Below, one piece after another: positions 13,873 to 29,042 of a stretch of 30,176 bases of DNA; position 1 is the stretch's first letter; every line of letters starts with the position of its first letter. The stretch is from a virus. The stretch spans positions 1 through 30,176 of IMG/VR virus record IMGVR_UViG_3300028384_000507; one strand, written 5' to 3'. A program made the translations under genes and the position numbers. The notes beneath the pieces were generated by a model, which was not told where the DNA came from, searched no databases, and saw only the letters and a list, made by a program, of their open reading frames with translations.

Positions 13873-13899
13873 ATATACATCTTTGTGCGAGAACATTAT

Positions 13900-15252
13900 A
13901 TGAATCATTCTTTTGAAATGCTGGACGGTGTTCGTATTGTCCAGTCTAATATTAAACTAAACTGCGAGGACAAGATCGGTTCGTTCATGACTGATCAGGA
14001 CTACGATCTCCTCGTGGATGCTGACACTGACTTTTATGCTCCTGCCTCGTTCGGCGATGTTCAGAACGAGGATAACATCATTTTTAAGTTTCGTAAGAAT
14101 GTGTTTACCGAGGAGCAACAGCGTGGTGCGTACGATGGTCTGGTAGGTGCGGCGACTCCGACTCAAAACCGTGGCAAGGCAGCAGGTCCCAAAGAGGGTC
14201 GACTGAACAATCGTGACTGGGTCACTGACTGCCAGTCTGATATCTTACAATACTTCATAGACTCAACTACCAGTCTGCTGGACGATGATCCGATAGAAAC
14301 GATTCGCCGCAAATATGCCGGCAGTAATCCTGGGGCACGTGGTTTGGTCTGGTTACGCAGTCAGATCGCCGACGCTGGTTACAATTACGATACCTTCTTC
14401 GCTGATAAGGTTGAGGAACTCAGTGCTATGTCTCCGGAAGAGGCATCGAAGCATGCGTCATTCCTCAAGAAGTCATTTATCTCTGACACTACTTATGCGA
14501 ATCAGGTACTATCCGGCATCGCTGGTTTCTTTGACCGATATCCGCGTATCCCATACGGTCGCGCCACCTCTTATACTGAGAAGAATTACTCAACGTATGA
14601 GAAGTGCTATCCGTTCATGGTGCAACTCGCTGATACGTTTAAAGAGTTGCTGCCCCGTCGTCATGGTGTACAGGAACGCGAGGCAAATAAACTGGACTCG
14701 CGCTTTCGCGTGGCAGGTAAAGAAACGCCATTCACTACGATTACGGTGAATAAGAACTTCCGCACTGCTGCTCACCGTGATGCTGGTGACCTTCACGAAG
14801 GTTTCTCCAACCTAACCGTGGTCGCCAACGATAAGGAGTGGCAGGGTGGATACCTTGTGTTGCCTGAGTATCGCGTCGCGATTAACATTCGTCCTGGTGA
14901 TCTGCTTCTGATTAACAACCACGAAGGTATTCATGGTAACACCGAGATGCTTCCGCCCGAGGGCAAAACGGTTGAAGAGATGGAGCGTATCTCGCTCGTT
15001 TGCTATTTCCGTGAAAAAATGCTAGAATTGGGTTCTTGGGAATACGAGAAGGCACGATATGATTACGTCGAATCGCGTCGTAAGGATTCGAGTCACCCGC
15101 TCTGGCATAAACTATGGAACGGTGTCTCGCCGTCAATGTGGGATAATCAAGAGTGGTACGACTACCTTGAGTCTGAACTTGGCGAAACCGTGCTTCAGAA
15201 GTATCATCCCGAGGCGATGAGCAATAATTCACTTGAGGATTTTTTTGTATGA
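13900..15252 (+). CDS. TET/JBP-type 2-oxoglutarate/Fe(II) DNA base dioxygenase
   Basis: 450 residues. Enzymes of this class hydroxylate the methyl group of 5-methylcytosine or thymine in DNA. The C-terminal double-stranded beta-helix core has the iron triad: HRD (His292, Asp294) in NKNFRTAAHRDAGD and the distal His345 in HEGIHGNT. Between them GGYLVLPEYRVAINIRPGD (317-334) matches the JBP/TET strand pattern. The N-terminal 250 residues include a conserved-looking AAGPKEGRLNNRDW segment. The protein ends in NNSLEDFFV, shared with the next protein. ATG 13900 is used, and GTG 13885 in frame is possible. The stop overlaps the glycosyltransferase start (ATGA). Which base is oxidised cannot be told from sequence. 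Confidence 0.87.
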   Translation: MNHSFEMLDGVRIVQSNIKLNCEDKIGSFMTDQDYDLLVDADTDFYAPASFGDVQNEDNIIFKFRKNVFTEEQQRGAYDGLVGAATPTQNRGKAAGPKEGRLNNRDWVTDCQSDILQYFIDSTTSLLDDDPIETIRRKYAGSNPGARGLVWLRSQIADAGYNYDTFFADKVEELSAMSPEEASKHASFLKKSFISDTTYANQVLSGIAGFFDRYPRIPYGRATSYTEKNYSTYEKCYPFMVQLADTFKELLPRRHGVQEREANKLDSRFRVAGKETPFTTITVNKNFRTAAHRDAGDLHEGFSNLTVVANDKEWQGGYLVLPEYRVAINIRPGDLLLINNHEGIHGNTEMLPPEGKTVEEMERISLVCYFREKMLELGSWEYEKARYDYVESRRKDSSHPLWHKLWNGVSPSMWDNQEWYDYLESELGETVLQKYHPEAMSNNSLEDFFV

Positions 15253-16052
15253 TTGATTATAAAATTGCGATACCTTCGTATAAACGTGCCGAGACTGTAC
15301 AGCAGAAAACGCTGAAGGTCTTGGAAAGTCATAACATCCCGCCCGAGCGCGTGACCGTGTTCGTTGCGAATGACGAGGAGTATGAGATTTACTCCGAAGC
15401 GTTGAAGGATAATATTTACAATAACATCGTAGTGGGTGTTCCTACGATCGGTGCTCAGCGTAACTTCATGGAGAAGTATTACCCCGAGGGTACACGACTC
15501 ATGATGTTTGATGATGACATCGATGAGGTTCAGCGTCGGCAAGATGAGAAGACTCTCGTTCCGATTGACGACCTGTATACTGAGATCATTGAGCGTGGGT
15601 TCACTGAGTGTGAGAACGTTGGCGCCAAGACCTTCGGCATTTATGCGGCATCGAATGCATTCTTTATGAAGGATCGAGTGTATGACAAACTCTGCTACAT
15701 TATTGCTTCGATGTTTGGTGTGATCTGTGACCACGACCCTGAACTGAATAGAGTGACGAATCACGGCGAGGACTACGAGTACAGTCTTCGTCAGTATGTC
15801 AAGCATGGCGTTCTCTGCCGCCTCGACAACTACACGGTGAAGAGCAACTACTATAAGGAAGCAGGTGGACTTCAGACTATACGCACCAAAGAATACGTCC
15901 ACAACTCGATCACTCAGATCGCTGAGATGTTCCCTGACCTTTGTACTATGTACACGCGCAAAAGTACAGGGAATGCTGAACTCCGTCTGCGCGATGCCTC
16001 AGGCGGTCGGTACGATAAGAACAGCAACTCCCTCGAAGATTTTTTCGTATAA
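15249..16052 (+). CDS. TET-associated glycosyltransferase (TAGT, GT-A-like)
   Basis: 267 residues. The GT-A type N-terminus AIPSYKRAETV, the strand VTVFVANDEEYEIY and the metal/nucleotide-sugar motif MMFDDDID (Asp88-Asp92) define the fold. The segment VGVPTIGAQRNFM precedes it. This class is known from phage operons with TET/JBP dioxygenases and is thought to add a sugar to the hydroxylated base. The ATGA coupling to the dioxygenase gene fits that pairing. The C-terminus NSNSLEDFFV repeats that of the dioxygenase. It is unlike T4 alpha/beta-glucosyltransferases, which are GT-B enzymes. The sugar donor is unknown. Confidence 0.87.
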   Translation: MIDYKIAIPSYKRAETVQQKTLKVLESHNIPPERVTVFVANDEEYEIYSEALKDNIYNNIVVGVPTIGAQRNFMEKYYPEGTRLMMFDDDIDEVQRRQDEKTLVPIDDLYTEIIERGFTECENVGAKTFGIYAASNAFFMKDRVYDKLCYIIASMFGVICDHDPELNRVTNHGEDYEYSLRQYVKHGVLCRLDNYTVKSNYYKEAGGLQTIRTKEYVHNSITQIAEMFPDLCTMYTRKSTGNAELRLRDASGGRYDKNSNSLEDFFV

Positions 16053-16166
16053 CGGTATTATTACCGATTCATTTTTTCCTTACAAATCAACGACTTACAA
16101 CGCTGCAAAAACTCCTTGGAAATCAAGGAGTTGCATCTTTACATTTTTCTTCTCCCCGAGTATAAT
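16053..16166 (+). promoter_or_regulatory. Early promoter P7 with tandem operator, paralogous to P1
   Basis: TTTACA (16138-16143), 17-base spacer, TATAAT (16161-16166). AAATCAA cores at 16084-16090 and 16120-16126 repeat with period 36, the second ending 11 bases before the -35. TATTACCGA (16059-16067) lies 71 bases before the -35, exactly as in P1. GCA plus ACTCCTT (from 16104) pairs with AAGGAGTTGC (16124-16133) with an A bulge. A CGGTA-TTAT-TACCG hairpin (16053-16066) and a T-run just after the glycosyltransferase stop may end that operon. Confidence 0.8.
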
Positions 16167-16193
16167 TCTTTATATTGAATAGGAGATAGTCTA

Positions 16194-16355
16194 ATGGATA
16201 AGCAAATTTTAATCAATCAAATCGAAGCACTCAAACCCGAAGCAATTTCATTAGGTTTCGATTACCCATCAGAAGACCCAAGCGGAGTAGATTTCGAAAC
16301 CCTAGTCGAGTTCAAGTCCGAGTTAGAGCAGTTCATCAGTCAAGTTTCTGAATAA
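16194..16355 (+). CDS. Small acidic protein behind P7
   Basis: 53 residues, sole gene between P7 and P8, with AGGAGA upstream of ATG 16194. Very acidic, with two helices (QILINQIEALKPEAISLG and VEFKSELEQFISQVSE). No family is recognised. A dedicated strong promoter and operator for one tiny acidic protein suggests an early effector or inhibitor, which is inference. Confidence 0.65.
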   Translation: MDKQILINQIEALKPEAISLGFDYPSEDPSGVDFETLVEFKSELEQFISQVSE

Positions 16356-16358
16356 AGC

Positions 16359-16387
16359 TTTACATTGTGTTATTTTTTTAGCATAAT
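16359..16387 (+). promoter_or_regulatory. Early promoter P8
   Basis: TTTACA (16359-16364), 17-base T-rich spacer ending in TTTAG, CATAAT (16382-16387). It starts four bases after the stop codon of the small acidic gene. It drives the DUF262/HNH-like gene through a 68-base structured leader. Confidence 0.75.
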
Positions 16388-16455: not shown

Positions 16456-17781
16456 ATGAAATCTGAAATAAAGATAATGTCTCTTCAAGAGATAGTTAAC
16501 TTAGCAATCACAGGTAAGTTAGACCCCAATCCTATCGGTCAGCGACCTGCTGTAACTTCCGGCATTAAAAAATCTGTACGTATCGTTCGAAGCATGTTGA
16601 GCGGATATGGTTGTGGTATGCTAACCATCCGCGACATCCGCGACGACGAAGAAGCGAAGAAGATCTATAAGGCAGACTTTCTGATTATCGACGGAGGTCA
16701 CCGAGTTCGTGCTGTAGTCAAGTTCTATGAGGGCAAGATCTCATTGGACGGAAAGACTTATGTCGACATGGACGATGTAAACCTGTCTTCTATCATGGTA
16801 CCTGTTGATATCCGCGTTTGTACTTCGCGTGAAGCAACTGAGTTGTTCCGTAACATCAATGAAACAACTCCTGTTAATTTCATGGAGATGGTTATGTCAG
16901 ACGAGCAATCTCCTGTATGCGAGTTTATTCGAAGTCAAACGATGTACGTTAAAGAGTATGAAAACGAAGTCCACTCATTATTCAATTACCACCTAAATGC
17001 GAAAGGCGATTGGGTCGTCAAGAACTTTGACGGAAACCCCAACCCTCGCCGCAAGTGGGATGAGTATGTTGCGATCGCTTTGATTCGTGCTATCGAAGGC
17101 GGAATAGTTGACTCCGGTCAGACTGAGATCGAAGAGATCTGCGCGAACGGCAATCCTCCTATGACGAAGGCAGCGATGAAGGTTGTTAACAACTTTTTAA
17201 ACGATGCCCTCGGTCTCCGTAAGTTCCGCGGCAAGAAGTTCAACCAAGATGTATTTTCCGCTTTCTTGGTGTACTGGTTCGGTCTGTACGGTGAGAATAA
17301 AGTTTTCACTGTAAATGATAGATCTGGATTTTACCGAGATTTTATGAAAGCATATACCATCTTGACTGGTACCGCTGACACGAGTCTAGAAGATGAGACA
17401 ATATTCTTCGCTGGTCAAACTGATTTTGTAAAGAGTTTCGTTCGCAAGAACATTAAGAACTTTTCTAATTCAGTTTCGCAACAAGAAGTGTATCGTATCT
17501 TTCGCGAGTATACTGAAGGAACTGGAATTGTGTTCCGTACTGAGAAGCGATCTGAGTCTTCGGCAGTTCGCGAACAGCAACTGATCCTTCAAGACTATAA
17601 GTGTGCGATTGATGGTTTGCCGTTGTCACTTGAAGACGCTGTATTTGGTCACGATACTCCTTGGTCCGAAGGAGGGTGCGACGGTAAGATGATTCGAAAT
17701 AAGCATAATGTCGATATGGGCAGGTGTACATTAGACCAGTATCGTATGATTCTTCAGATGGAGGCTCGGAATTATGCCTAA
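16456..17781 (+). CDS. DUF262/ParB-like protein with C-terminal HNH-like motif
   Basis: 441 residues. The N-terminal part shows the DUF262/ParB-type signature: PNPIGQRP (25-31) and the nucleotide-handling IDGGHRVRAV (78-87). The middle is helical. The last 65 residues contain CAIDGLPLS, GHDTPWSEGG (His399, Asp400) and NKHNVDMG (His417, Asn418), an HNH-type nuclease pattern with only one of the usual zinc-binding cysteines. GmrSD-type enzymes, which cut glucosylated hydroxymethylcytosine DNA, combine DUF262 with an HNH-like nuclease, and ParB-like proteins accompany phage base-modification operons. A nuclease that recognises modification, or unmodified host DNA, is plausible but unproven. The ATG follows GAGGATCAATC. 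Confidence 0.72.
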   Translation: MKSEIKIMSLQEIVNLAITGKLDPNPIGQRPAVTSGIKKSVRIVRSMLSGYGCGMLTIRDIRDDEEAKKIYKADFLIIDGGHRVRAVVKFYEGKISLDGKTYVDMDDVNLSSIMVPVDIRVCTSREATELFRNINETTPVNFMEMVMSDEQSPVCEFIRSQTMYVKEYENEVHSLFNYHLNAKGDWVVKNFDGNPNPRRKWDEYVAIALIRAIEGGIVDSGQTEIEEICANGNPPMTKAAMKVVNNFLNDALGLRKFRGKKFNQDVFSAFLVYWFGLYGENKVFTVNDRSGFYRDFMKAYTILTGTADTSLEDETIFFAGQTDFVKSFVRKNIKNFSNSVSQQEVYRIFREYTEGTGIVFRTEKRSESSAVREQQLILQDYKCAIDGLPLSLEDAVFGHDTPWSEGGCDGKMIRNKHNVDMGRCTLDQYRMILQMEARNYA

Positions 17782-17979: not shown

Positions 17980-19395
17980 ATGCCAGCATTAAAGTCAACA
18001 GACATGGGAACGAAGATCGCCAGTTCTGGTCCATATGCTGGCGAAACTCGCGATAAGATTTTTGAACTGAAGATTAAAAATAATAAGCAGTTCACACTTG
18101 GTTCTACTGAACATGGCGCGAAAGTAACTGGTGTGTCATATGACAACAAGACGCGCAAATTTTCATTCTATAGATCGACCAACAAGAATGTTATTGAAAC
18201 AGTAAGTTACACTGGCGTGTTCAAAGACCCTGAGTTCGGTGGCGGTAAAGGATCGGGCGGCGGTGCTGATGACACTAAGTACACTGAATCGTTACAGTGC
18301 TATTATTGCTCTTATGTTTTCAATATAGCAAAGAAGAAGATTACTTCGGCGAAACCAGAACAATTGAAGCAAGGAACGAGATTCGTTCAAGCGTCCGAGT
18401 CTTTAGAAAACTGTCTTGCCAATGGTCCAGGAAACTGGGTCGAGACAGATGTATACATTAAAACCGCGAACCGATTGTATGATGAGTATGGTAGTACAAT
18501 GAGATCGCCTGTTTATTTTCATCGCGGTTCAACATTTATGGATAATGTATATGCTGCGAAATCTAAGTGCCATAAAATTGACAAGGCGACCGGAGATCCG
18601 CAAGCACCAGGATCGTTCTCCCACGATAAGTGGAACCCAGGAGATATCTGGGCATCTACTTTTCCTACGAGCGATTCACCGCTTGCTGACTACACGTCGA
18701 ACTGGGGAGAACTCAACGAGCGAGTATATAACCTCGCGAAGAGTGGTAAGTTGCTTGGCATTTCTTTGAAGAAAATAGAGGCAAACGCTCTACGCGCAAA
18801 CTATCAGCAGTTCAATGCACCTACACTTGCTCCTCCTGCATCTTACAAATTTGGCAGTTGGTCATACGGTAAGACTGGCGACTTTTTTAAATCGCAGGAC
18901 ATTTATATTCGAATTAACGGGAAGGAAGTTCAGTTTCGAACGTTTGGAGGTACGACTTCTTGGCAGGGTGAGATCAAAGGTGTTGCTGCTGCAGGTGGAC
19001 GAATCGGTGGCGGTAACGTTCATTTTTATTGCAAGGAAGTATTCGGCAAGGGAATTTTTGGCAATTACGAAACTGAGGCAGAATACCTTGAGTGGTTCAA
19101 ACGTAACGAGAGCAATGGCGTTTCGCAACAAAGAATGTATGACTTGTACAAAAAATACAACAGTCAATCTTCACCTTCGCTGCCGCTGATGGATCAGGCA
19201 GAATTCATGAAGAATCTTGCCGCGATACCAAAGTTAAAAGAATATAATTTCAAAAACAGTAAAATGATCTGTTTGGAATTTTTGGATGTGATCATGTCAG
19301 GTACAACTGCTCAGCGCGATCAACTCGCAACTAAGATGTTTCGCTATGCTGAGTCGGCGACTGATCAGTCCAGTTACTTTATAAAATTATACTAA
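17980..19395 (+). CDS. Late protein, probable virion component
   Basis: 471 residues. The N-terminal 85 residues look like a small beta domain, followed by a glycine-rich linker (GGGKGSGGG, 87-95). A larger domain follows with CYYC (107-110), YFHRGSTFMDNVYAA and HDKWNPGDIWAS. The KWNPGDIW motif is conspicuous and I have a vague memory of it in uncharacterised phage proteins, but I cannot assign a function. A separate glycine-rich segment (AAAGGRIGGGNVHF) lies near 340. It follows a late-promoter box and precedes a structural-type gene, so a virion role is inferred from context. No ribosome site of quality is seen (TTTAGGGAAC, 17967-17976). Confidence 0.7.
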   Translation: MPALKSTDMGTKIASSGPYAGETRDKIFELKIKNNKQFTLGSTEHGAKVTGVSYDNKTRKFSFYRSTNKNVIETVSYTGVFKDPEFGGGKGSGGGADDTKYTESLQCYYCSYVFNIAKKKITSAKPEQLKQGTRFVQASESLENCLANGPGNWVETDVYIKTANRLYDEYGSTMRSPVYFHRGSTFMDNVYAAKSKCHKIDKATGDPQAPGSFSHDKWNPGDIWASTFPTSDSPLADYTSNWGELNERVYNLAKSGKLLGISLKKIEANALRANYQQFNAPTLAPPASYKFGSWSYGKTGDFFKSQDIYIRINGKEVQFRTFGGTTSWQGEIKGVAAAGGRIGGGNVHFYCKEVFGKGIFGNYETEAEYLEWFKRNESNGVSQQRMYDLYKKYNSQSSPSLPLMDQAEFMKNLAAIPKLKEYNFKNSKMICLEFLDVIMSGTTAQRDQLATKMFRYAESATDQSSYFIKLY

Positions 19396-19401: not shown

Positions 19402-19426
19402 GAAGTAAGAATAATGGGGAAATAAA

Positions 19427-20128
19427 ATGGCAATTTCAAAATATCTAAATCATCAAGGCATTGACATTGCTCGTGGATTGATCGTTGACACAAGTCATAT
19501 CAACAAGTTCGGGTTTACTGGTGCGAACGCTAATGGCACTGCTACAGTTTGGGACGGCAACGGAACAACAGCGGTTTACCCATACCCCATAGCAGGACTC
19601 GTTTCCGTGTCGTCATCGAGCGGAACGGACGACGGCGAAACCATTGAGGTACAAGGACTGGACGATCAGTTCAACGCGGTGACAGAAACGCTGACCATTG
19701 GTTCCGGTACATCAACTGCTTCTTTCTCACGCGTCTTCCGCGCAAGAATGATCACTGCTGGAAACGTCGGAACAATCTCAATCGATCAGGGTGTGAACCT
19801 TGCGGCGCAAATTTTACCAAGCAACGGTCAAACGCTGATGGCGGTGTACACTATACCGGCAGGATACACAGGATATGTCGCCAAGTTTCAAGGAAGTATG
19901 GACAAAGCAAACGTTGATGTGAAGTTTAAGTTGTATTGCCGCGAACCAAATGACAATGGTGTATTTCGTCTGATCGGGCAGTGGGGTTCGCAAGGCGGAA
20001 ACCCAGTTGGATACGAGTATCCTGTCCCATTACGCGCTCCGGAAAAATCTGACCTGCGCGTAGATGTGACGACGGGCGCGGCATGCGCGTGTGGAGCAAT
20101 CTTTGACGTGGTATTAATTAAGAACTGA
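19427..20128 (+). CDS. Virion structural protein (beta-rich)
   Basis: 233 residues, with GGGGAAATAAA upstream. Low in charge, rich in Gly, Thr, Ser and short strands, without cysteine except near the end (CACG). Segments such as VWDGNGTTAVYPYP, DDGETIEVQGLDDQFN and ETLTIGSGTST are typical of marine phage head decoration, fibre or neck proteins. I cannot place it more exactly. It is driven by a late box and overlaps the next gene by one base. Confidence 0.75.
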   Translation: MAISKYLNHQGIDIARGLIVDTSHINKFGFTGANANGTATVWDGNGTTAVYPYPIAGLVSVSSSSGTDDGETIEVQGLDDQFNAVTETLTIGSGTSTASFSRVFRARMITAGNVGTISIDQGVNLAAQILPSNGQTLMAVYTIPAGYTGYVAKFQGSMDKANVDVKFKLYCREPNDNGVFRLIGQWGSQGGNPVGYEYPVPLRAPEKSDLRVDVTTGAACACGAIFDVVLIKN

Positions 20129-21351
20129 TGAACGATTTTCAAGAATACATTACTGAGCAGCAAAATACGCACATGACTCATATCGAGGACAAAGTCCTCT
20201 ATGGTGGCGTCGACGGCACACGTCAGGCGATTAACGCACTCCGCGAGTTGCGTAACATGCTTGGAGGTAAACGTGGCAGTAGAGTTTCGGTCAAGTGGGA
20301 CGGTGCACCTGCTATCTTCGCCGGAACAGATCCTCGCGACGGGGAGTTCTTCGTAGCGAAGAAAGGTATTTTCAATAAGAATCCAAAGGTCTACAAGACT
20401 GCCGCTGAGGTTGACGCAGATACTTCGGGCGACCTAGCAGAAAAACTGAAGGATGCACTCAAATATCTTCCCGCACTAGGTATTAAGGGTGTCATTCAAG
20501 GCGACTTCCTCTTTGGGCGCGGCGACGTAACAACCAAAGAAATCGACGGCGAAAGTTACAGCACGTTTCATCCCAATACGATTGTCTATGCGATTCCGTA
20601 CAAGCAAGCGGCAGCAGTAAGAAAGGCGAAGATCGGAATTGTGTGGCACACCTCCTATACTGGCAACTCGTTTGAAACCATGCGCGCATCCTATGGTGTC
20701 AACGTTGCTTCTCTGAGCAACTCAAAAAATGTTTGGTCTCAAGACGCGATGTTGAATGATATGCGAGGAGCAACTCTAACGAAACGAGAAACTGAAAGTG
20801 TCAACGAAATACTGTCCAGTATCGGTAGATTGTTCAACGGGATCTCTGGCACAACACTCCGAGAGTTGGAAGGAAATCAAACGCTCGCTCAGCACATCGA
20901 ACAGTTTAATAACACATATGTACGCGAAGGCGAAACGATCGGTGACACGCGAGCACACGCTGCTAAACTCATTCGTTGGATAAAGGCAAAGTATCGAAAA
21001 GAAATTGCTGCAAGAAAAACGACGCGGGGCAAAACGGCACAACAAAGAAAACTTGATGCGCTTCTTTTGTTCTTTTCTACGGAAAATCGAGCGAATCTGA
21101 TTAAAATGTTCGAATTACAAAAATTAATTGTGCTAGCAAAATTAAAGCTTATAAATAAACTTAATTCGATCGGTAATTATAAAACTTTCGTTAAATCAGC
21201 GAAAGGTTATAAAACTACTGGTCAAGAAGGATATGTAGCGATAGACACACTTGGTGGTGACGCGGTGAAACTGGTTGATCGTATGGAGTTTTCCTACAAC
21301 AACTTTTCACCTAATATTTTGAAGGGATGGCAGAAACCTAGTAGGAGATGA
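20128..21351 (+). CDS. DUF6267-like candidate covalent nucleotidyltransferase (ligase-like), capsid-targeted
   Basis: 407 residues. Motifs of the covalent nucleotidyltransferase superfamily (DNA/RNA ligases, capping enzymes) appear in order: motif I VKWDGAPA with the candidate lysine Lys56, a motif III-like GDFLFG (125-130), motif IIIa-like NTIVYAIPYK (150-159), motif IV EGYV (367-370) and motif V VKLVDR (380-385). The gap between IIIa and IV is long and holds a helical, basic, locally AT-rich insertion. The protein would activate a nucleic-acid end through a lysyl-NMP. The start MNDFQEYITE is close to the T4 internal-protein signal MKTYQEFIAE, so it may be packaged and cut after Glu10. Phage homologues are, I believe, catalogued as DUF6267. 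Confidence 0.72.
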   Translation: MNDFQEYITEQQNTHMTHIEDKVLYGGVDGTRQAINALRELRNMLGGKRGSRVSVKWDGAPAIFAGTDPRDGEFFVAKKGIFNKNPKVYKTAAEVDADTSGDLAEKLKDALKYLPALGIKGVIQGDFLFGRGDVTTKEIDGESYSTFHPNTIVYAIPYKQAAAVRKAKIGIVWHTSYTGNSFETMRASYGVNVASLSNSKNVWSQDAMLNDMRGATLTKRETESVNEILSSIGRLFNGISGTTLRELEGNQTLAQHIEQFNNTYVREGETIGDTRAHAAKLIRWIKAKYRKEIAARKTTRGKTAQQRKLDALLLFFSTENRANLIKMFELQKLIVLAKLKLINKLNSIGNYKTFVKSAKGYKTTGQEGYVAIDTLGGDAVKLVDRMEFSYNNFSPNILKGWQKPSRR

Positions 21352-21354
21352 TCA

Positions 21355-21891
21355 GTGGCAAAACCACTTGGATTTAAAGACTTCATCACAGTTGATTATA
21401 GGCCAGGAGAAGATGATCAACTGAAGTATAAGGCGCAGAAGAGAAAGAAAGATCTGGATCGCGGTCTAAACGACGATTGCTGGTCTGGATACAAGCGCGT
21501 CGGAATGAAGAAGAAAGGTGGTAAGATGGTACCAAACTGCGTACCTGAAAACCAGCAATTGACTCAAGAAAAACTCAGTCTCGCCTCCCGTCGCGCACTC
21601 GCGCGAGCGATGAAAAGAAATAAAGCAAAAATAAAGATGGGTCGCCGACGTGCGATGCAGCGCGTTGCTACACCTGATGTATTGATGAAGCGCGCAAAGA
21701 AACACGCTCGTAACATTATGTTCAAGAAGATCGCTAAGAAGCATCGCGGTGAAGTCACACCAGCACGCAAAGCGGCGATTGAAGATCGTCTAAATAAGAT
21801 GAAGGGGCGTATTGATAAAATGGCGCGAAAGATGATACCGCAGATTCGCAAGATAGAAAAAGAGAGAAGGTCTGGCGGTTCAGACAAGTAG
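21355..21891 (+). CDS. Very basic late protein, putative internal head protein
   Basis: 178 residues from GTG 21355 behind TAGGAGATG. Extremely rich in Lys and Arg (LARAMKRNKAKIKMGRRRAM and following). An N-terminal part contains GFKDFITVD, similar to the capsid-targeting segments of its neighbours, and CWSGYKRVGMKKKGG with NCVPE, a two-cysteine module I associate with marine phage proteins. The helical C-terminal part would bind DNA. Composition and signal fit a DNA-associated internal protein. Exact role unknown. Confidence 0.72.
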   Translation: MAKPLGFKDFITVDYRPGEDDQLKYKAQKRKKDLDRGLNDDCWSGYKRVGMKKKGGKMVPNCVPENQQLTQEKLSLASRRALARAMKRNKAKIKMGRRRAMQRVATPDVLMKRAKKHARNIMFKKIAKKHRGEVTPARKAAIEDRLNKMKGRIDKMARKMIPQIRKIEKERRSGGSDK

Positions 21892-21902
21892 GGATTTACA
21901 TA

Positions 21903-23435
21903 ATGACATCTATACCATCTTTTAAACAGTATCTGGTTGAGGAAGAAAGGGAAGCGTTCTTCACATTCGGTCGAATGAACCCTCCGACAATCGGTCACGG
22001 CAAATTGATGAATGTTCTGTCAGCGAAGGCAGGGCGTAACCCATATAAGATATATCTCTCACATACTCAGGACGGAAGAAAGAATCCGCTAGAGTATCGT
22101 CAAAAAGTTAAGCACGTCCGCAAAATGTTTCCAAAGCATTCACGTAATGTTATACTGGACACAAAAGCAAAAACTGTTTTCGACGTGGCAACAAAATTAT
22201 ATGAACAAGGTTTCAACAAGGTCACCATGGTTGTTGGTTCTGACCGCACGACTGAATTCAAAACACTCTTAGAGAAATACAACGGTGTCAAGGGTCGTCA
22301 CGGTTTTTACAACTTCGAGAAGATCAACATCGTTTCTGCTGGAGAGCGTGATCCGGATGCTGCTGGCGTTGAGGGTATGTCTGCCTCTAAACAACGCGAT
22401 AATGCAAAGAATAATGATTTCACTGCATTCTCTCAAGGCGTCCCGTCAACTATGTCGAACAACGAAGCAAAGCGTTTGTTCAATGATATTCGTAGCGGTC
22501 TGGGTCTGAAAGAATCGTCGCACTTTAAGAACCATGTCGAACTGGAGCGTGTATCTGAAACGCGCGAGCAGTATGTCGAAGGGAATCTGTTTGAAGAAGG
22601 CGATCGCGTTCGTATCAAATCAAACGAGAAAGTGGGATATGTTCATCGTCTCGGTGCTAACTATGTCATCGTTGCGCTCGACGAAGGTCGCGTATCCCGT
22701 CAATGGTTAGACGGAATCGAGAAATTAGAAGAGAAAGGTTTCGCAGGTTCTGGCACCCTCCGTGATCTGATGCCAGACGTTGACTCATTCCTTGATCGGT
22801 TCACTCACGGCAAGAAGTACAAGCATGCAGTTCGTTTGTTCCTTGACCTCAGAAAGAAGAATCCAAACAACGCATATAAAAATCTTCGCCGTGCTGCTCA
22901 AATTGCAGATGTCGATCTCCGATCTCTCGATAAAGTGTTCCGCGATATGGTCAAGAAGGGCAAGATGCCTAAGCACTTGATCAACTACCCAACTCTACAA
23001 AGAGAAAACTATCTTCCTGACGAGGGGACTGACGCGGCAGTCAAGCACGCTAAGAAGATGACACCGAAAGCAGAAGAAGCGGCGACTCGCCAAGATCCAG
23101 ATATCAAAGATCGCAAGGGCACTCAACCTGCTTCTTATCATTCAGGTCTTTCCAAGGCGCAAAAGGTTGCTCGCGACCGTCAGTTTAAGAAGCAAGCGAA
23201 GATGCGCGATAATGATCCAAAGGCATATAAACCTGCTCCTGGAGATAAGACTGCAAAGACTAAGCAGTCAAAGTACACTGCGGCATACAAGCGTATGTTC
23301 GGCGAGAGCGAAGTTGCTGCAGTAAAGAAAACAATTAGTCGTGAGAAGGAACAGGATGCTGTTCGTCACGATAGAATGCTTGATCGCGCTAGATTACAAC
23401 GCGCGCAAAGAAAGGCGAGGGAAACACGTCCATGA
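21903..23435 (+). CDS. Cytidylyltransferase-like nucleotidyltransferase with basic tail, capsid-targeted
   Basis: 510 residues. Residues 17-190 form a nucleotidyltransferase domain of the HxGH type: FTFGRMNPPTIGHGKL (His32, with Thr in place of the first His), VVGSDR (111-115) and MSASKQR (159-165), the counterpart of the ISSTxxR signature. NMN/phosphopantetheine/CTP transferases share this fold and the substrate cannot be read here. Residues about 205-270 include a beta domain (EEGDRVRIKSNEKVGYVHRL), then a helical part and a long Lys-rich tail with DNDPKAYKPAPGDK. The N-terminus SFKQYLVEE resembles the T4 capsid-targeting sequence, so the enzyme may be carried in the virion. Confidence 0.8.
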   Translation: MTSIPSFKQYLVEEEREAFFTFGRMNPPTIGHGKLMNVLSAKAGRNPYKIYLSHTQDGRKNPLEYRQKVKHVRKMFPKHSRNVILDTKAKTVFDVATKLYEQGFNKVTMVVGSDRTTEFKTLLEKYNGVKGRHGFYNFEKINIVSAGERDPDAAGVEGMSASKQRDNAKNNDFTAFSQGVPSTMSNNEAKRLFNDIRSGLGLKESSHFKNHVELERVSETREQYVEGNLFEEGDRVRIKSNEKVGYVHRLGANYVIVALDEGRVSRQWLDGIEKLEEKGFAGSGTLRDLMPDVDSFLDRFTHGKKYKHAVRLFLDLRKKNPNNAYKNLRRAAQIADVDLRSLDKVFRDMVKKGKMPKHLINYPTLQRENYLPDEGTDAAVKHAKKMTPKAEEAATRQDPDIKDRKGTQPASYHSGLSKAQKVARDRQFKKQAKMRDNDPKAYKPAPGDKTAKTKQSKYTAAYKRMFGESEVAAVKKTISREKEQDAVRHDRMLDRARLQRAQRKARETRP

Positions 23436-23659
23436 AATTTAAAGATTTTATTGTTAACGAAGATGCGCTGGCAGATAAAGCAGCAAAGTCTGGTATCTCC
23501 AAGGGTACGTTGAAGAAGGTATATGATCGTGGAGTCGCGGCATGGAAAACGGGGCATCGCCCAGGAACAACCCCGCAGCAATGGGGTCATGCCCGTGTCA
23601 ACGCTTTCATCGTTAAGAAAAAGAAAGGTGGATTGAATCACGATAAGGATCTAGCATGA
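23432..23659 (+). CDS. DUF5824-like small protein, capsid-targeting N-terminus
   Basis: 75 residues, ATGA-coupled. After MKFKDFIVNEDA comes a compact domain with KSGISKGTLKKVYDRGVAAW, HRPGTTPQQWGHARVNAFI and a basic end, which I recognise as the DUF5824 pattern found in marine phages. The fold probably binds nucleic acid, but no function is established. The N-terminal segment ends at a Glu-Asp site suitable for prohead protease cleavage. Confidence 0.78.
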   Translation: MKFKDFIVNEDALADKAAKSGISKGTLKKVYDRGVAAWKTGHRPGTTPQQWGHARVNAFIVKKKKGGLNHDKDLA

Positions 23660-23838
23660 GTAAAACTAAGAAACCGCGCAACAAAAAAATGTCACAAGCA
23701 AAGAAAGACAGACTGGCGGCGAACAATTTACAAAATAATAAATATAATACAACGGGTTCGGGTTCCCAAAACCTGAAAATGAATAACACAAATAGGACAC
23801 AATCAAAAGTGTTCCGTGGCGCATCGAGAGGAAGTTAA
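23656..23838 (+). CDS. Small basic disordered protein
   Basis: 60 residues, ATGA-coupled to the DUF5824-like gene. Very rich in Lys, Asn, Gln and Ser with no hydrophobic core, hence probably disordered and DNA-binding. It lacks the F-x-x-F signal of its neighbours. It is followed after one base by the next gene. Real by coupling and position rather than by homology. Confidence 0.6.
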   Translation: MSKTKKPRNKKMSQAKKDRLAANNLQNNKYNTTGSGSQNLKMNNTNRTQSKVFRGASRGS

Positions 23839-23839
23839 A

Positions 23840-25639
23840 ATGTCAGCACAAGATAAGTTGGATCGCAGCGCAGCAAAGCACGGTCTGGGTTCTGATGAGC
23901 GTAAGCGCAAGATTCAGAAGGCGAAGGATTTCTTCAGTAAACCTGTGCCAACATACAGTAAGGACGAGTTGCGTAAGATGGGTCATCCAGTAGAGCAGAA
24001 CGAAAGCAGATTCGATATCGCAATTCCTGCGCCAAAGGGTTCAAACAAGAATACTGATAAGCAACGTGCCGCGAAAGCAGCACGACGTGCTAGCAATCGA
24101 GCGAAAACCGACACGACTAAGATCGACAAGGCAGTAGCAAAAGATAAAGCACGTTCGGCGTCTGGTAGTCTCACAAGAACTGATGATCACAGGCGCAAGA
24201 ACTATCAGACTGGCAAATCAGGCGCACATTTTTCCAAGTACGAATCATCAGCAGAATATGGTAAGTCAATGGATCGTATTCGCGACAAAGAAAAGAATGC
24301 TGCTATCAAACCAAAGGACCGCGAAACTTTGGGTAAACTTGCTGACCTTATGAAAAAACAAAAGCGAAACGAAGCATACCGCAAACCTACACAGGCAGAG
24401 ATTGATGCCGATAAGAGAAAAGACGGTAAGAGCAAAGACTCTTCAACAAGGTATAAGAACATGAAGAAAAAGATGTACGGTAATGCCATGAGCGGTCTTA
24501 AAAACGAAGAGAAAATGTATTCTGTCAAATACACTCATCCAACTGATAAGAAGTCGGGTAAGACGACTGGTCCTCTCTCAAAAGCAGCGGCAGATAAGAA
24601 AGCAGCAATGGGTAACCGAGTTGATCGCGTTGGCGGTAAGTACACTGTCATCCCTCACGTTGAGACTGCAGGTCAAGAATACACTGCGGTACCAACTAAG
24701 ACGGGCGACGTGAGTCAAGCGGATCGCCTGACAATTGCTAAGATGGATGCTATCATGAAGAAGCGTTCAAAGGATAAGCGTCAGAAAGAAGATTGGAAAG
24801 CAGACTCGGCGCGACGCATGAGGAACCAGCGAATTGCTAATGAACCATATCGTGGTCCATCAGAGCCAGATACGCGCACAGATGCTGAGCGTATGGCGGA
24901 CAGAGCAAAGTTAGCAAAACGTTTCGCAGCAGACAAAGCAAAGCAAGACAAAGCAATGGCGAGTAAGAAAGAGTCAGTCAACCTCGAAGAAAATAAAATA
25001 TTCTTTGTAAAGGTGGGCGATGGGCGGGACCATATGACTGTCAAAGTCAAGGCACCGAACAGTCGCGAAGCGTTGAAAAAGATGCGTGCTCAACATCCGA
25101 AAGATAAAGTCGCATTAGACCAAAATCAGAAACAAGGTAGGTCTGCTGGCGCATTGGAATCAGTAGAAACGAACGAGTCGTCGTTACCGCCGCATCTACA
25201 AAAGATCATCGGTAAAGACGGGCAAATCGACAAGAAGAAAGTTGATCAGCATGTCCACGGCAAAAAGACTAAGGTGACTGATGTGACTCCAAAGGGTTAT
25301 GGTCCTAAAGAAGAAGATGTTGATGAAGCAACAATGGCAGACCGTACAGTTCTGAGAGCAGTCCGAATCGCAAAAGACATGGCAGGAAACCATACTGGTG
25401 CTTCGAAGCGTATCGAGAAGATGAAGAAAGGTTTATCTGATCACCCTAAAGTAAAAGATGCATTGCGATTGGCGAACGAGTCAGTAGCAACTGCAGATAA
25501 GAAACCTCAGAACTTCCGTGATCCAGCAACAGGAAAAATGAAGGTTCGTATGGTGCCAGTTGACCGTGATGTTGTTCGCAGCGATGATGCAGCAAGGGTT
25601 GTTCGTAAAAAGCGTTTCAAGCACTTGAGGTCAAAATGA
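23840..25639 (+). CDS. Large modular basic late protein, unknown
   Basis: 599 residues, GAGGAAGTTAAA upstream of ATG 23840. Long Lys/Arg/Ala-rich helical stretches alternate with short folded-looking modules: EKMYSVKYTHPTDKKSG, ENKIFFVKVGDGRDHMTVKVK and SSLPPHLQKIIGKDGQ. The modules are preceded by acidic Asn-Glu-Ser/Glu-type junctions (QNES, KNEE, LEEN, TNES, ANES). This looks like a mosaic assembled from small proteins, perhaps cut by the prohead protease at the acidic junctions. No enzyme motif is visible. It overlaps the next gene by ATGA. Head-internal scaffold or packaged polyprotein is inference. Confidence 0.72.
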   Translation: MSAQDKLDRSAAKHGLGSDERKRKIQKAKDFFSKPVPTYSKDELRKMGHPVEQNESRFDIAIPAPKGSNKNTDKQRAAKAARRASNRAKTDTTKIDKAVAKDKARSASGSLTRTDDHRRKNYQTGKSGAHFSKYESSAEYGKSMDRIRDKEKNAAIKPKDRETLGKLADLMKKQKRNEAYRKPTQAEIDADKRKDGKSKDSSTRYKNMKKKMYGNAMSGLKNEEKMYSVKYTHPTDKKSGKTTGPLSKAAADKKAAMGNRVDRVGGKYTVIPHVETAGQEYTAVPTKTGDVSQADRLTIAKMDAIMKKRSKDKRQKEDWKADSARRMRNQRIANEPYRGPSEPDTRTDAERMADRAKLAKRFAADKAKQDKAMASKKESVNLEENKIFFVKVGDGRDHMTVKVKAPNSREALKKMRAQHPKDKVALDQNQKQGRSAGALESVETNESSLPPHLQKIIGKDGQIDKKKVDQHVHGKKTKVTDVTPKGYGPKEEDVDEATMADRTVLRAVRIAKDMAGNHTGASKRIEKMKKGLSDHPKVKDALRLANESVATADKKPQNFRDPATGKMKVRMVPVDRDVVRSDDAARVVRKKRFKHLRSK

Positions 25640-25977
25640 AAAAGTTTAGTCAATTCGTTGAAGAAAAGGTAGACGCCTGTTGCGAAGCATGTAACGAAGA
25701 ACTCGTCCATGAGGCGGCAGAGTATCAGGGCAAGAAAGTTACTCTGAACAACCCTGTACGGGGCGGTACAAAGAAGTTTTATGTATTCGTCAAGAACGAG
25801 AAAGGCAATGTCGTCAAGGTTTCTTTTGGTGACCCAAACATGGAGATCAAGCGAGACGATCCGGCACGACGAAAGAGTTTCCGCGCTCGCCACAACTGCG
25901 ACAACCCAGGACCAAAGTGGAAAGCGCGATACTGGTCTTGCTATCAGTGGCGATCAGGTTCCAAAGTTGACAGTTAA
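25636..25977 (+). CDS. Conserved phage protein with Cys-rich C-terminal motif, capsid-targeting N-terminus
   Basis: 113 residues. MKKFSQFVEEKVD resembles the T4 internal-protein signal. CCEACNEE then gives a cysteine cluster. The C-terminal domain has KKFYVFVKNEKGNVVKVSFG, DDPARRKSFRARHNCDNPGP and ARYWSCYQW, a pattern I have seen in many phage and marine proteins of unknown function. The conserved Arg, His, Cys and Trp residues suggest a catalytic or metal site. Processing after the N-terminal Glu would leave the domain intact. Confidence 0.75.
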   Translation: MKKFSQFVEEKVDACCEACNEELVHEAAEYQGKKVTLNNPVRGGTKKFYVFVKNEKGNVVKVSFGDPNMEIKRDDPARRKSFRARHNCDNPGPKWKARYWSCYQWRSGSKVDS

Positions 25978-26273
25978 TGATTCGGTTCAGTCAGTACATC
26001 TCAGAAGAAGTAAAAAGAGAACAAGAACTTAATGGTAAAAAGTTTTCTGTCTCTTACCATGTAGAACCGACTCCTTCTCAGAAGAGACATATCAAAAATA
26101 TATTCGTGCCTTATGCTATAATGTATACAAAGGATGGGTATGACGTGATTATTCGTTCTTCTCGGCATATGGGTCGCGAATCAAGATTTGTTTTGTTTAG
26201 GTCTAAGGGTGGAAAAAGTCAACCGATGATTGACAAACTTATTAGTACGCACGGAAAAATAAAAGACGCCTAA
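25977..26273 (+). CDS. Late hypothetical protein, capsid-targeting N-terminus
   Basis: 98 residues, TAATG-coupled. It begins MIRFSQYISEEVK, like the preceding protein and T4 internal proteins. The remainder is basic with strands (KFSVSYHVEPTP, DGYDVIIRSSRHMG) and no recognised domain. It is the last gene of the continuous late operon that begins at 19427. Confidence 0.68.
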   Translation: MIRFSQYISEEVKREQELNGKKFSVSYHVEPTPSQKRHIKNIFVPYAIMYTKDGYDVIIRSSRHMGRESRFVLFRSKGGKSQPMIDKLISTHGKIKDA

Positions 26274-26420
26274 GAAATAAAACCGTATAAATAACTGGAG
26301 TGGTTGAACAATACGAAAGCGTTAATCGCCTTCGTTGAACTATGGTTTCGTCGAAACAAAATATAATTAACATATATGTGTTAATTGACGATAGATTCAA
26401 TGGATCAATTGGAGGATAGT
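26274..26420 (+). promoter_or_regulatory. Late promoter and structured leader
   Basis: TATAAATA (26286-26293) is a perfect T4-type late promoter. The leader to the next gene is about 130 bases and can form three hairpins: CGAA-GCG/CGC-TTCG with a one-base internal mismatch (about 26315-26334), GTTTC/GAAAC (about 26344-26356) and AATTAACA/TGTTAATT around TATATG (about 26366-26387). GTTGAAC occurs on both sides of the first hairpin. GGAGG (26411-26415) is the ribosome site. No gene is seen in the leader. Confidence 0.6.
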
Positions 26421-26702
26421 ATGTCTATAGAGACAGACCGGTTAGACCGTATTGAAGAGAAAATAGATAAACTCTCAGATGCTATAGTATCATTGGCGAG
26501 AGTGGAAGAAAAAATTGCTGACTTGGAAGTTCGAAGAGAAGAGCAGCATGATAGATTGAACAGCTTGTCGAAAAAGATTGACAGCATAGATACGCATGTT
26601 ACGTCCCTTGTTGAAAAGGTGTCGGTGATGCAAAAAGTCGGATGGATCATTGTAAGCGTGTTCATTATGGGCGTGTCTTCAAGATTCTTTGACATAATAT
26701 AA
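26421..26702 (+). CDS. Coiled-coil protein with C-terminal membrane helix
   Basis: 93 residues. GGAGG spacing fixes ATG 26421, and an in-frame ATG at 26400 overlaps the site. Residues about 5-70 are heptad-like and highly charged (RLDRIEEKIDKLSDAIVSL), then a hydrophobic helix (VGWIIVSVFIMGVSSRFF) near the end anchors it. This layout is shared by XhlA-type lysis accessory proteins and other phage membrane proteins. It has its own late promoter, and a holin gene lies further downstream. Confidence 0.72.
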   Translation: MSIETDRLDRIEEKIDKLSDAIVSLARVEEKIADLEVRREEQHDRLNSLSKKIDSIDTHVTSLVEKVSVMQKVGWIIVSVFIMGVSSRFFDII

Positions 26703-26713
26703 CGGAGATTGGG

Positions 26714-27601
26714 ATGAACGCTAACTACATTGAGATGATCAAAGGCATCTTGGGTGAAATGGATAAGAAAAAAATGGATCCGGTCGGTAAGGCAGATGCT
26801 GATATCGACAACGACGGTGATGTTGATTCTTCTGACAAGTATTTGCACAAGCGTCGCAAGGCGATTTCTAAGTCTATGAAAAAAGAAGACGACGCCAAAG
26901 TAACCAAGTGCCCTTCTTGCGAAGGTTCTATGGATAACCACGAACCTGAGTGCCCAAAGGCAAAATCAGAAGGTTGCGGCGACTACGATAAGAAGTCTAA
27001 GAAGGAAGAAGTCGAGCAGGTTGCTGAAGTGTCTGCTAACCATAGCGTGTACGGTCATAAGGCAGATGGAACTAAGAAGGTCATTGGGCGTTCTCACGGC
27101 AGCGACGAAAAGGAAGCAATCAGCAACTTCCACAGTTCTCCTAACAACGGTCAGTTCAAAAGCGTATACAAAGGATTCAGCGCCAAGCGTGATCACGTTG
27201 AGTACAATAATCAACCTGTTGTATCTGAGCAGTGGGGTTTCGGCGAAGTCATCGAAACAACTGACGAAGGTCTGAACGTCTACTTCGATCATGGCGTTGA
27301 GTTTAACGTTCCGGCAGAATCTCTGACATTCCTTGAAGATAAGAAGCACACAAAGGGCGCAACTGCCCCTGAAGGTCTCTTAGATAAAGAATCACCAAGG
27401 TCTAAGAAGTTCGTCAAGGATCACCAGAAGTCCGACAAGAGCGTTGAAGACCTAGAAACGAAAGGTCACGTAGACGCTACTAAAGCAGGGCGCGCCACTA
27501 CTAAGCAAGCACCTGCTCGTCCTGGCGAAAAGCGTGTCGGCGATATTAAAATCGTAAACCCAGTACAAGGAGCGGTAACGCAAACCACTGGCAAGGAATA
27601 A
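26714..27601 (+). CDS. EF-hand/dockerin-like and zinc-knuckle late protein
   Basis: 295 residues, ACGGAGATTGGG upstream. DADIDNDGDVDSSD (28-41) is a complete calcium-binding loop with Asp at 30, 32, 34, 36, 38 and 41, followed by the basic helix KYLHKRRKAISKSMKK. CPSC with a later His and two Cys (ECPKAKSEGC) could bind zinc. A beta-domain follows (GFGEVIETTDEGLNVYFDHG), then a Lys-rich end. The N-terminal calcium loop plus KYLHKRRK is, from memory, frequent in marine T4-like phages. Function unknown; probably a virion or head protein. Confidence 0.75.
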   Translation: MNANYIEMIKGILGEMDKKKMDPVGKADADIDNDGDVDSSDKYLHKRRKAISKSMKKEDDAKVTKCPSCEGSMDNHEPECPKAKSEGCGDYDKKSKKEEVEQVAEVSANHSVYGHKADGTKKVIGRSHGSDEKEAISNFHSSPNNGQFKSVYKGFSAKRDHVEYNNQPVVSEQWGFGEVIETTDEGLNVYFDHGVEFNVPAESLTFLEDKKHTKGATAPEGLLDKESPRSKKFVKDHQKSDKSVEDLETKGHVDATKAGRATTKQAPARPGEKRVGDIKIVNPVQGAVTQTTGKE

Positions 27602-27604
27602 TCT

Positions 27605-27907
27605 ATGGCTAAAGTTCGAGATAAGAACTTTGACTTAGATAATGATGGGGTTATTACAGATCAAGAGTTAGAAAGATCTGAACGACTCATGAACTTAGAG
27701 AATGAAGACAAGAAGCAAGACGCGCAGCGACAGATGGCGTGGTTGGCAGCAATCTCAATGCCAATGTATGCCGTCTTGCCCCTCCTCCCATTTGTCCCAG
27801 TAGAAAGACTAAATACTCTGGCATCGATGAGTGACATGCTGTTCTTGTCACAAGCATCGGTAATAGGGTTGTTCTTCGGAGCACAGGCATATATGTCTAA
27901 AAAATAA
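27605..27907 (+). CDS. EF-hand protein with two membrane helices
   Basis: 100 residues. DLDNDGVITDQE (10-21) is a canonical EF-hand loop with ligands at positions 1, 3, 5, 7, 9 and 12. A charged helix follows, then two hydrophobic segments (AWLAAISMPMYAVLPLLPFV and LSQASVIGLFFGAQAYM). It is a calcium-binding membrane protein. Its location near a holin gene suggests a part in lysis or membrane interaction, which I infer only. It begins three bases after the preceding gene. Confidence 0.75.
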   Translation: MAKVRDKNFDLDNDGVITDQELERSERLMNLENEDKKQDAQRQMAWLAAISMPMYAVLPLLPFVPVERLNTLASMSDMLFLSQASVIGLFFGAQAYMSKK

Positions 27908-27925
27908 CAAACGGGATATTATAAT

Positions 27926-28297
27926 ATGAGATTGTTTGAAGAGTTGGATGACAAAAACTTTGAGATGTTTGCTGTACGTCATTACTACAACCCTGTTTGC
28001 GCCGATCCGGACGAATTCTATGAGGATTTAAATCGCTTCAAGTATCTGAAGCGACTCATCACACGCTACAAAGAGACAGGCAAACCCTCGGTCAATCTCA
28101 TCTTAAATCACCTAGTTGTGATTTTTAATGTTTTTGGTATTGACTCCGGTCTGAAAATGTTGCATTATAAGATCAAGAGAGATAGTGATTGGGAAATCAT
28201 TAAACCATTTTTGCTCTACTTAAAGGCGATCGATAACACTAAATACCTTGGAGTAGAAATGGATAAATTAATAATTGAAGAATTGAGGAAACTATAG
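27926..28297 (+). CDS. DUF7207-like conserved T4-like protein
   Basis: 123 residues. FAVRHYYNPVCADPDEFYEDLNRFKYLKRLITRY (read in parts), LILNHLVVIFNVFG and a C-terminal IKPFLLYLKAI segment are typical of a small all-helical protein conserved in T4-like phages, which I associate with DUF7207. The biochemical role is unknown. The ribosome site is weak (ACGGGATATT). Its stop overlaps the GTG of the next gene (TAGTG). Confidence 0.8.
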   Translation: MRLFEELDDKNFEMFAVRHYYNPVCADPDEFYEDLNRFKYLKRLITRYKETGKPSVNLILNHLVVIFNVFGIDSGLKMLHYKIKRDSDWEIIKPFLLYLKAIDNTKYLGVEMDKLIIEELRKL

Positions 28298-28884
28298 TGT
28301 CATTAGCATCTAGAGCAGGTGATCTGTACTATTCGTTTCGGTTCGTTAAGTTACTGACAACACCGTTCGAAGATACAGAAGCATACAAGCTTGGGATCAT
28401 TGACGAGAAAGGCAATAGAATTAAAACAAAGAAGATATCAAGCAGCGAAGAAAAGTCTGCTTTCACTACCTTTCACCGTCTTGTTTTCAATGTAAAGAAA
28501 TTACTGGAGAAACTTCCTGGAGGTCAGTCGCGACTAGCATCATATGCTGCAGCACTTTTCTTATTGAAAGAGAAATATGATCTGTCTGACTCCACAGTCG
28601 ATAATCTCATTGAGAAGTCCGGACTTGAGGTCATGGATTTTCTTGCTGAAAAGTCTGAATGGTATTTACTACCAGATAAACAACTCTCTCCTGGCGTCTA
28701 TCGCCTTCGCGAATCGAAACTCGACAATATCAATTGTCAGGAAATCGCCAAGCCGAAAGATAAGATTCGCATACATCCAGAGTCATACCCCATTGGAGAT
28801 ATCTTCGGATTAGACGTCTACGAAGCGACACACCTAAATACTAATCAAAAGATATATGTTGTTCTCGGAGAGATATACAAATGA
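28297..28884 (+). CDS. Conserved T4-like late protein
   Basis: 195 residues from GTG 28297, with TTGAGGAA upstream. SLASRAGDLYYSFRFVKLLTTPF, DEKGNRIKTKKI and AFTTFHRLVFNVKKLLEKL are, from memory, well conserved in T4-like phages of marine bacteria and always near the preceding type of gene. The second half is beta-rich (GVYRLRESKL, IFGLDVYEATHL). Probably virion-related, exact function unknown. Joined to the next gene by ATGA. Confidence 0.78.
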   Translation: MSLASRAGDLYYSFRFVKLLTTPFEDTEAYKLGIIDEKGNRIKTKKISSSEEKSAFTTFHRLVFNVKKLLEKLPGGQSRLASYAAALFLLKEKYDLSDSTVDNLIEKSGLEVMDFLAEKSEWYLLPDKQLSPGVYRLRESKLDNINCQEIAKPKDKIRIHPESYPIGDIFGLDVYEATHLNTNQKIYVVLGEIYK

Positions 28885-29042
28885 AATCGTTTAAGCAATA
28901 TGATGAGGAAGTTACAACTGCTGCATCTGCCGGCATTCCTCATGACACTAAAGACATGGGTCCTAAAAAGAAAAAGAAATATAAAATATTGACCAGAGGT
29001 TTCATTGAAGTTGCTGGGAAAAGAAAACGTATCGCAAAGTGA
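28881..29042 (+). CDS. 53-residue late protein with capsid-targeting-like N-terminus
   Basis: 53 residues, ATGA-coupled to the preceding gene. It starts MKSFKQYDEEV, like the other capsid-targeting candidates, then has an Ala/Thr-rich linker, a lysine run (PKKKKKYK) and a short conserved-looking end, RGFIEVAGKRKRIAK. It is the seventh protein with this signal in the late block and the smallest. After cleavage it would be a short basic peptide, comparable with small T4 internal peptides. Confidence 0.68.
   Translation: MKSFKQYDEEVTTAASAGIPHDTKDMGPKKKKKYKILTRGFIEVAGKRKRIAK

Follow-up and report, generated by a model that had tools for sequence, protein, structure and literature searches.

In bacteriophage T4, the internal proteins IPI, IPII and IPIII and the enzymatically active Alt share an N-terminal signal of about ten residues, the capsid-targeting sequence (CTS), on otherwise unrelated proteins; IPII and IPIII begin MKTYQEFIAE. 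For IPIII, genetic work showed that ten N-terminal residues suffice for targeting, that residues 4 and 7 serve targeting and residues 8 and 10 processing, that Asp at position 10 blocks processing and leaves targeting intact, and that the gp21 protease cuts after L/I-X-E (PMC9026906). T4 internal proteins are injected and block GmrSD restriction, according to a further report (PMC12373910). In this study, we analysed a linear virus record of 30,176 bases (IMG/VR IMGVR_UViG_3300028384_000507, positions 1 to 30,176; no further contigs), hereafter the window, in which seven genes encode a similar leader at or near the N-terminus. We consider it very likely that this phage group loads proteins, enzymes included, into its heads by a T4-type CTS. 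With the same high confidence, we regard the window as holding part of a capsid-cargo island, in which unrelated proteins carry a detachable leader of about 7-10 residues, F/Y-x-x-F/Y-I/L-x-E.

By its gene order and proteins, the window belongs with the T4-like marine myoviruses of the Kyanoviridae type, as a fragment of 30 kb. Both features are common to the window and the classified Phage C48C1 (68% for DUF6267 and 62-68% for nucleotidyltransferase segments), which was the nearest complete genome found (OQ984149, 156 kb, 206 genes) and carries a syntenic copy at about 60-72 kb. C48C1 has the same protease, scaffold and capsid module as T4: gp21-, gp22- and gp23-type proteins (prohead protease, scaffold and major capsid) are annotated, with the gp21-type protease and gp22-type core genes at 14633-15292 and 15302-16387. 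The leaders agree with the T4 CTS in its key positions, aromatic residues at 4 and 7, I/L at 8 and Glu at 10. In contrast to T4, the cargo of this phage group is a larger and chemically different set (an NMNAT-like enzyme, DUF6267, S-adenosylmethionine lyase and a kinase), its genes lie mostly in one or two islands adjoining the cytidylyltransferase gene, its bodies have no detectable homology to T4 cargo, and some leaders lack the cleavage Glu.

In the giant phages phiKZ and SPN3US, head proteins are also cut after Glu by a gp21-like protease and their propeptides are thought to be CTS-like, but these are mostly far longer, and the short F-x-x-F-I-x-E leader is not common to them. In the T4-like cyanophages S-CREM2, S-SCSM1 and S-SM1, the tagged nucleotidyltransferase was detected in virions by mass spectrometry (MS) in all three, as were the S-adenosylmethionine lyase and kinase in S-CREM2. 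The accessible parts of these virion papers propose carriage in the virion without naming a signal, and the leader would supply the targeting mechanism. A literature search that covered subscription journals thinly returned work on such signals only in T4, P1 and giant phages; within this coverage, a capsid-targeting signal in this phage family appears unreported.

Leaders of the seven window proteins

The original prediction held that seven proteins of the window share a T4-like capsid-targeting N-terminus, and all seven open reading frames were present with the N-termini it gave. All lie on the plus strand. The DUF6267 protein (407 residues, 20128-21351) begins MNDFQEYITE (20128-20157), the 113-residue protein (25636-25977) MKKFSQFVEE (25636-25665), the 98-residue protein (25977-26273) MIRFSQYISE (25977-26006) and a basic protein of 53 residues (28881-29042) MKSFKQYDEE (28881-28910). 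A DUF5824 C-terminal piece of 75 residues (23432-23659) has its own leader, MKFKDFIVNE (23432-23461). The NMNAT/cytidylyltransferase-like enzyme (510 residues, 21903-23435), whose N-terminus is MTSIPSFKQYLVEE, contains FKQYLVE at residues 7-13 (21921-21941). A basic protein of 178 residues (21355-21891), with the N-terminus MAKPLGFKDFITVD, has the variant GFKDFITVD at residues 6-14 (21370-21396), which keeps the aromatics and has no Glu. The choice of start is supported for 20128, 23432, 25636, 25977 and 28881, since each of these starts overlaps the upstream stop by 1-4 nucleotides.

In an unbiased scan, the T4 signal KTYQEFIAE, taken from IPII and IPIII, was compared with the N-terminal residues of each gene, with internal stretches as background. 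Among the 53 window genes, the top scores belonged to 20128 (24), 25636 (22), 21903 (16) and 28881 (16); 25977 (14) was joint sixth, and the scores of 21355 and 23432 were 10 and 5. The first two exceed 99.8% of internal stretches; p was about 0.01 for 21903 and 28881, 0.025 for 25977, 0.09 for 21355 and 0.32 for 23432. The last two score low because the Glu is missing in 21355 and one extra residue shifts the register in 23432. The aromatic spacing F-x-x-F/Y is present in 7/7 leaders, with a shifted register in 21355, 21903 and 23432. Relatives of the small proteins begin alike: the C48C1 orthologue of 25636 (78% identity) starts MKKFKQYIDE, the closest relative of 25977 MLRFAQYIVE, and relatives of 28881 MKDFKTYVED and MKSFKQYVQE. 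At the place matching 28881, the C48C1 gene starts MKTFQEFMK.

Conservation within the families follows the positions defined by T4 genetics. In 45 relatives of DUF6267, F4 is kept in 39/45, F/Y7 in 34/45, I/L8 in 44/45 and E10 in 44/45, and positions 2, 3, 5 and 6 are free. The nucleotidyltransferase shows the same spacing in 46 relatives, with F, Y/F, L and E each in 44/46. Among 39 relatives of the 21355 protein, the first aromatic is F in 39/39 and the second in 36/39, and V replaces the Glu in 31/39. This pattern predicts packaging without cleavage, and the 21355 product is probably targeted and uncut. AlphaFold2 (AF2) models place the leader outside the folded domain, and residues 1-17 of the DUF6267 protein (20128) have a predicted local distance difference test score (pLDDT) below 50. 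Together with the MS detection of tagged homologues in purified virions of relatives, these matching positions strongly support the predicted T4-like targeting N-terminus on unrelated proteins.

Processing by gp21 after the Glu, also part of that prediction, fared unevenly. By sequence, 20128, 21903 and 25977 offer an L/I-X-E site, 23432 (V-N-E) and 25636 (V-E-E) are marginal, 28881 (D-E-E) is doubtful, and 21355 has no Glu to cut after. Gp21-type cleavage is likely where I/L-x-E is present.

Recurrence in related loci and detection in virions

We surveyed 150 related IMG/VR loci gathered by DUF6267 and nucleotidyltransferase homology, with genes from a simple open-reading-frame caller and the motif [FY]xx[FY][ILV]xE, as first read from the window, scored at gene starts against same-sized internal windows. 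The same N-terminal signal recurred at gene starts: 110/1,643 non-redundant genes (6.7%) carried it, compared with 17/36,968 internal windows (0.046%). When the DUF6267, nucleotidyltransferase and DUF5824 families were removed, the motif was still found at 29/1,506 gene starts (1.9%), a 42-fold enrichment. Binomial p-values overstate significance here because the surveyed genes are related by descent; the effect size is independent of them. Tagged genes were also clustered, making up 27-38% of genes over the 0-4 kb that follow the DUF6267 start and at most 3% beyond +6 or -6 kb. They included a zeta-toxin-like P-loop protein (locus L013) and several families for which Pfam gave no match.

In C48C1, a looser motif marked 5/24 genes of the matching cluster versus 1/182 elsewhere (p=8e-5). 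The T4-CTS scan of its 206 genes gave MKTFQEFMK at 71659 as the best hit, and five of the top eight genes lay in the syntenic cluster. The UvsW-like gene at 19419 (MKDYSHFMVE) also scored high, probably by chance, and was set aside. For the C48C1 nucleotidyltransferase (63514; position 13514 of locus L003), the annotated start is too late and the leader is lost; an upstream GTG gives MIKNFSQYLLEEEREVYFTFGR. Mis-annotated starts of this kind may conceal leaders in other records.

Proteins detected in published analyses of purified virions from relatives carry the leader. The S-CREM2 study lists 52 MS-detected virion proteins (PMC10665884, Table 3), a few of which puzzled its authors as non-structural, with 21 peptides for the kinase and 19 for the S-adenosylmethionine lyase. 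We found leaders on these non-structural proteins: MKDFDSFLEE on the S-adenosylmethionine lyase, MKRFDAFLTE on the APH/kinase and MKNFSSFLTE on the cytidylyltransferase. With the strict motif, 3/3 tagged S-CREM2 proteins were MS-detected compared with 49/215 others (p=0.013; p=0.002 among non-structural genes), and with an independent T4-CTS score of at least 16, 5/7 compared with 47/211 (p=0.009). A looser expression, picked after S-CREM2 had been seen, gave 5/6 and was not relied on. A Mann-Whitney test over all S-CREM2 proteins did not reach significance, since the virion consists mostly of tail and head structural proteins that have no leader. S-CREM2 ORF136 has the leader MQTFSMFFSE and ORF13 the weaker form MKDLHSFLTE. 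In the Cas9-like ORF12, the motif FASFMAE occupies residues 19-25, behind 18 extra residues, a layout similar to that of S-CRM01 g128.

Sullivan et al. (2010) report the cytidylyltransferase T4-GC190 in S-SM1 virions (PMC3037559), and this protein begins MKKFSAFLNE. T4-GC15, the second non-T4 protein detected in that work, was considered as a DUF6267 member and ruled out as a baseplate-region gene. The S-SCSM1 NMNAT, published as virion-detected and so labelled in its GenBank record, begins MKSFLQFLKE. The NMNAT of S-CBWM1, also reported in virions, has no leader; this phage belongs to a different group.

Proposed packaging route and rival explanations

For this phage, we infer core docking, cleavage and injection as follows. 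The two aromatics (T4 positions 4 and 7) would dock the cargo on the assembling prohead scaffold core, and a gp21-type prohead protease would cut after the Glu where an I/L-x-E site is present. The mature cargo would remain in the head with the DNA and enter the host at infection, a likely step by analogy with the T4 internal proteins. Where a good site is missing, as in 21355, the protein would be packaged with its leader kept, as happens in T4 when position 10 of the CTS is mutated to Asp.

Several observations weigh against this route. The DUF6267 proteins of S-SM1 (T4-GC71) and S-CRM01 have no leader, so it is not obligatory for that family. In S-SCSM1, the genome-wide test of tag against virion label was not significant (1/48 versus 1/216), and the tagged ORF30 (MKTFKQFMSE) is not labelled as a virion protein. 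Many MS-detected cargo-like proteins are without the leader. Cleavage of Kyanoviridae cargo is predicted from sequence, and the gp21-type prohead protease, scaffold and major capsid genes all lie outside the 30-kb fragment.

The leader could instead bring these proteins to the prohead to act there as assembly or core components, as T4 gp67 and gp68 do, and they would then be degraded or retained and not injected. The small, highly charged products of 23656, 23816 and 28881 resemble core or DNA-condensing proteins more than enzymes, and the same core and protease serve the core proteins of T4. However, the leader sits on full enzymes with conserved active-site motifs, and large intact enzymes were recovered from virions with many peptides, as the S-CREM2 counts show. 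We therefore regard a purely core role as unlikely. A docking peptide for the tail, baseplate or another late assembly partner is a highly unlikely reading of the motif: virion MS does not tell head from tail and most genes adjoining the S-SCSM1 island encode virion proteins, but the position-by-position match is to the T4 head-core signal, and in S-CREM2 the leader is absent from the genes annotated as tail or baseplate.

The authors of the S-CREM2 and S-SCSM1 studies themselves raised the possibility that the detected enzymes are abundant contaminants surviving CsCl purification, in which case the leaders would serve another role. Contamination does not predict one leader common to the detected non-structural enzymes, nor the same enzyme in three independent virion proteomes, and we judge it very unlikely. 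The motif is short, and the nucleotidyltransferase and DUF6267 families supply many related sequences that inflate the very small p-values, so chance or ordinary N-terminal domain conservation was also weighed. Such an origin is extremely improbable given the enrichment that persists without the three large families, the variation of the leader at unconstrained positions outside the fold, and its absence from the distantly related nucleotidyltransferase of jumbo phage G17.

Loading through a T4-type CTS thus remains the preferred reading. One leader shared by unrelated proteins, among them an enzyme of the NAD-synthesis type, together with the tagged enzymes of related viruses whose virions were analysed by MS, points to a means of packing enzymes into the particle, which would probably deliver them along with the DNA. 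We give about even chances to a wider proposal: that marine T4-like phages share a general and transferable code for capsid loading, in which a leader of 7-10 residues makes any gene head cargo, different phages deliver different counter-defence or take-over enzymes at the onset of infection, and the leader predicts virion cargo from sequence alone. If so, the delivered set would include an S-adenosylmethionine lyase against restriction, an NMNAT-like enzyme against NAD depletion, a kinase, a Cas9-like nuclease and a zeta-toxin-like kinase. Cyanophage proteomics repeatedly finds enzymes in virions without deciding between packaging and contamination, a question the leader turns into a testable rule. 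It would also serve as a sequence-based predictor of injected proteins in very abundant ocean viruses, bring a different phage family, with other cargo, into the T4 internal-protein system, and suggest that injected enzymes serve in counter-defence or metabolism. The original prediction placed the enzyme-type cargo far beyond the known small T4 internal proteins. T4 already packages the CTS-bearing Alt, outside its small internal proteins, and enzyme cargo as such therefore has precedent.

Cargo families and neighbouring features

Two nucleotidyltransferase-type enzymes had been proposed among the seven proteins, and one assignment stood. The 21903 product matched the PHROG cytidyltransferase family (E=3e-74) and, in Foldseek, NadD/NMNAT/PPAT structures (probability 1.00, E=1.6e-4); it contains PPTIGH, fitting the (T/H)xGH motif, and Pfam CTP_transf_like falls just below its cut-off. 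The modelled structure confirms it as an NMNAT/NadD-fold nucleotidyltransferase. The second candidate, 20128, matches Pfam DUF6267 from residue 13 (E=2.5e-102). In the DUF6267 alignment, K56xDG (KWDG), E367G and K381 are invariant and resemble covalent nucleotidyltransferases. An RNA/DNA ligase-like assignment was tried from these motifs, read by eye, and rejected: no Pfam, PDB-sequence or PDB-fold (Foldseek) match to such enzymes was found, and the AF2 model is weak (predicted template modelling score 0.52).

The 23432 product matches Pfam DUF5824 at 61-125 (E=8e-19) and directly follows 21903, in which the C-terminal part corresponds to the beginning of DUF5824. Most stand-alone DUF5824 relatives (75-95 residues) have their own leaders; two surveyed loci (L036 and L079) carry it as a C-terminal fusion to the nucleotidyltransferase, with a single N-terminal leader. 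This arrangement fits a targeting signal, since such a signal predicts one leader per polypeptide, and it lends indirect support to the idea that the leader by itself may suffice for targeting. A CWxGYxxxGMKxKxGKxVPNCVP segment of 21355 is common to the S-CREM2 virion protein ORF160 (E=3e-4).

Two neighbouring genes on the plus strand, neither with the leader, have virion relatives. The 471-residue protein at 17980-19395 is homologous to S-SCSM1 ORF90, labelled a virion protein; the two align at 25% identity across 388 columns (E=5e-23). The 295-residue protein at 26714-27601 shares a segment with the S-SCSM1 virion protein ORF92 (E=5e-10). Its relatives start MNxEYIxxIxxLWQEVxE, ahead of an EF-hand-like DxDNDGDVDSSDKYLHKRRKAI segment also seen in the S-SCSM1 virion protein, and this start is possibly a second kind of head-targeting leader. 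In S-SCSM1 ORF93 (locus L168, 5627-5836), a 69-residue virion protein, the leader-like TFKEFLEYIE stands at the C-terminus and not at the N-terminus.

Two related cargo islands, in S-CREM2 (locus L160, 3837-13331) and S-CRM01 (locus L163, 7249-11827), hold the kinase and small tagged proteins as well as the Cas9-like N-terminus or g128, with its tag at least 15 residues in. The S-CRM01 island also has a tagged nucleotidyltransferase, and that of S-CREM2 a tagged S-adenosylmethionine lyase.

A T4-type late promoter-like site, TATAAATA, lies inside the window cluster (26286-26293, plus strand), with a second at 21150-21157. Two exact matches against 0.94 expected by chance are not significant alone, and the label 'late' for the cluster rests on homology and T4-type logic because the site is not above chance.

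Elsewhere in the window, the phage itself encodes at 16456-17781 a 441-residue protein that weakly resembles GmrSD_N/DUF262 (E=0.008) and whose C-terminus is HNH-like. A Tet/JBP-type oxygenase (13885-15252, PF12851, 5e-24) and a TET-associated glycosyltransferase (15249-16052, PF20691, 6e-18) both end NSLEDFFV, and the D12 methyltransferase (2961-3908) has NTLEDFY near its end. In C48C1, the DNA polymerase ends TLEDFFG and the D12 methyltransferase TLDAFFG. These endings suggest that the DNA-modifying enzymes and the polymerase have a common putative sliding-clamp-binding tail.

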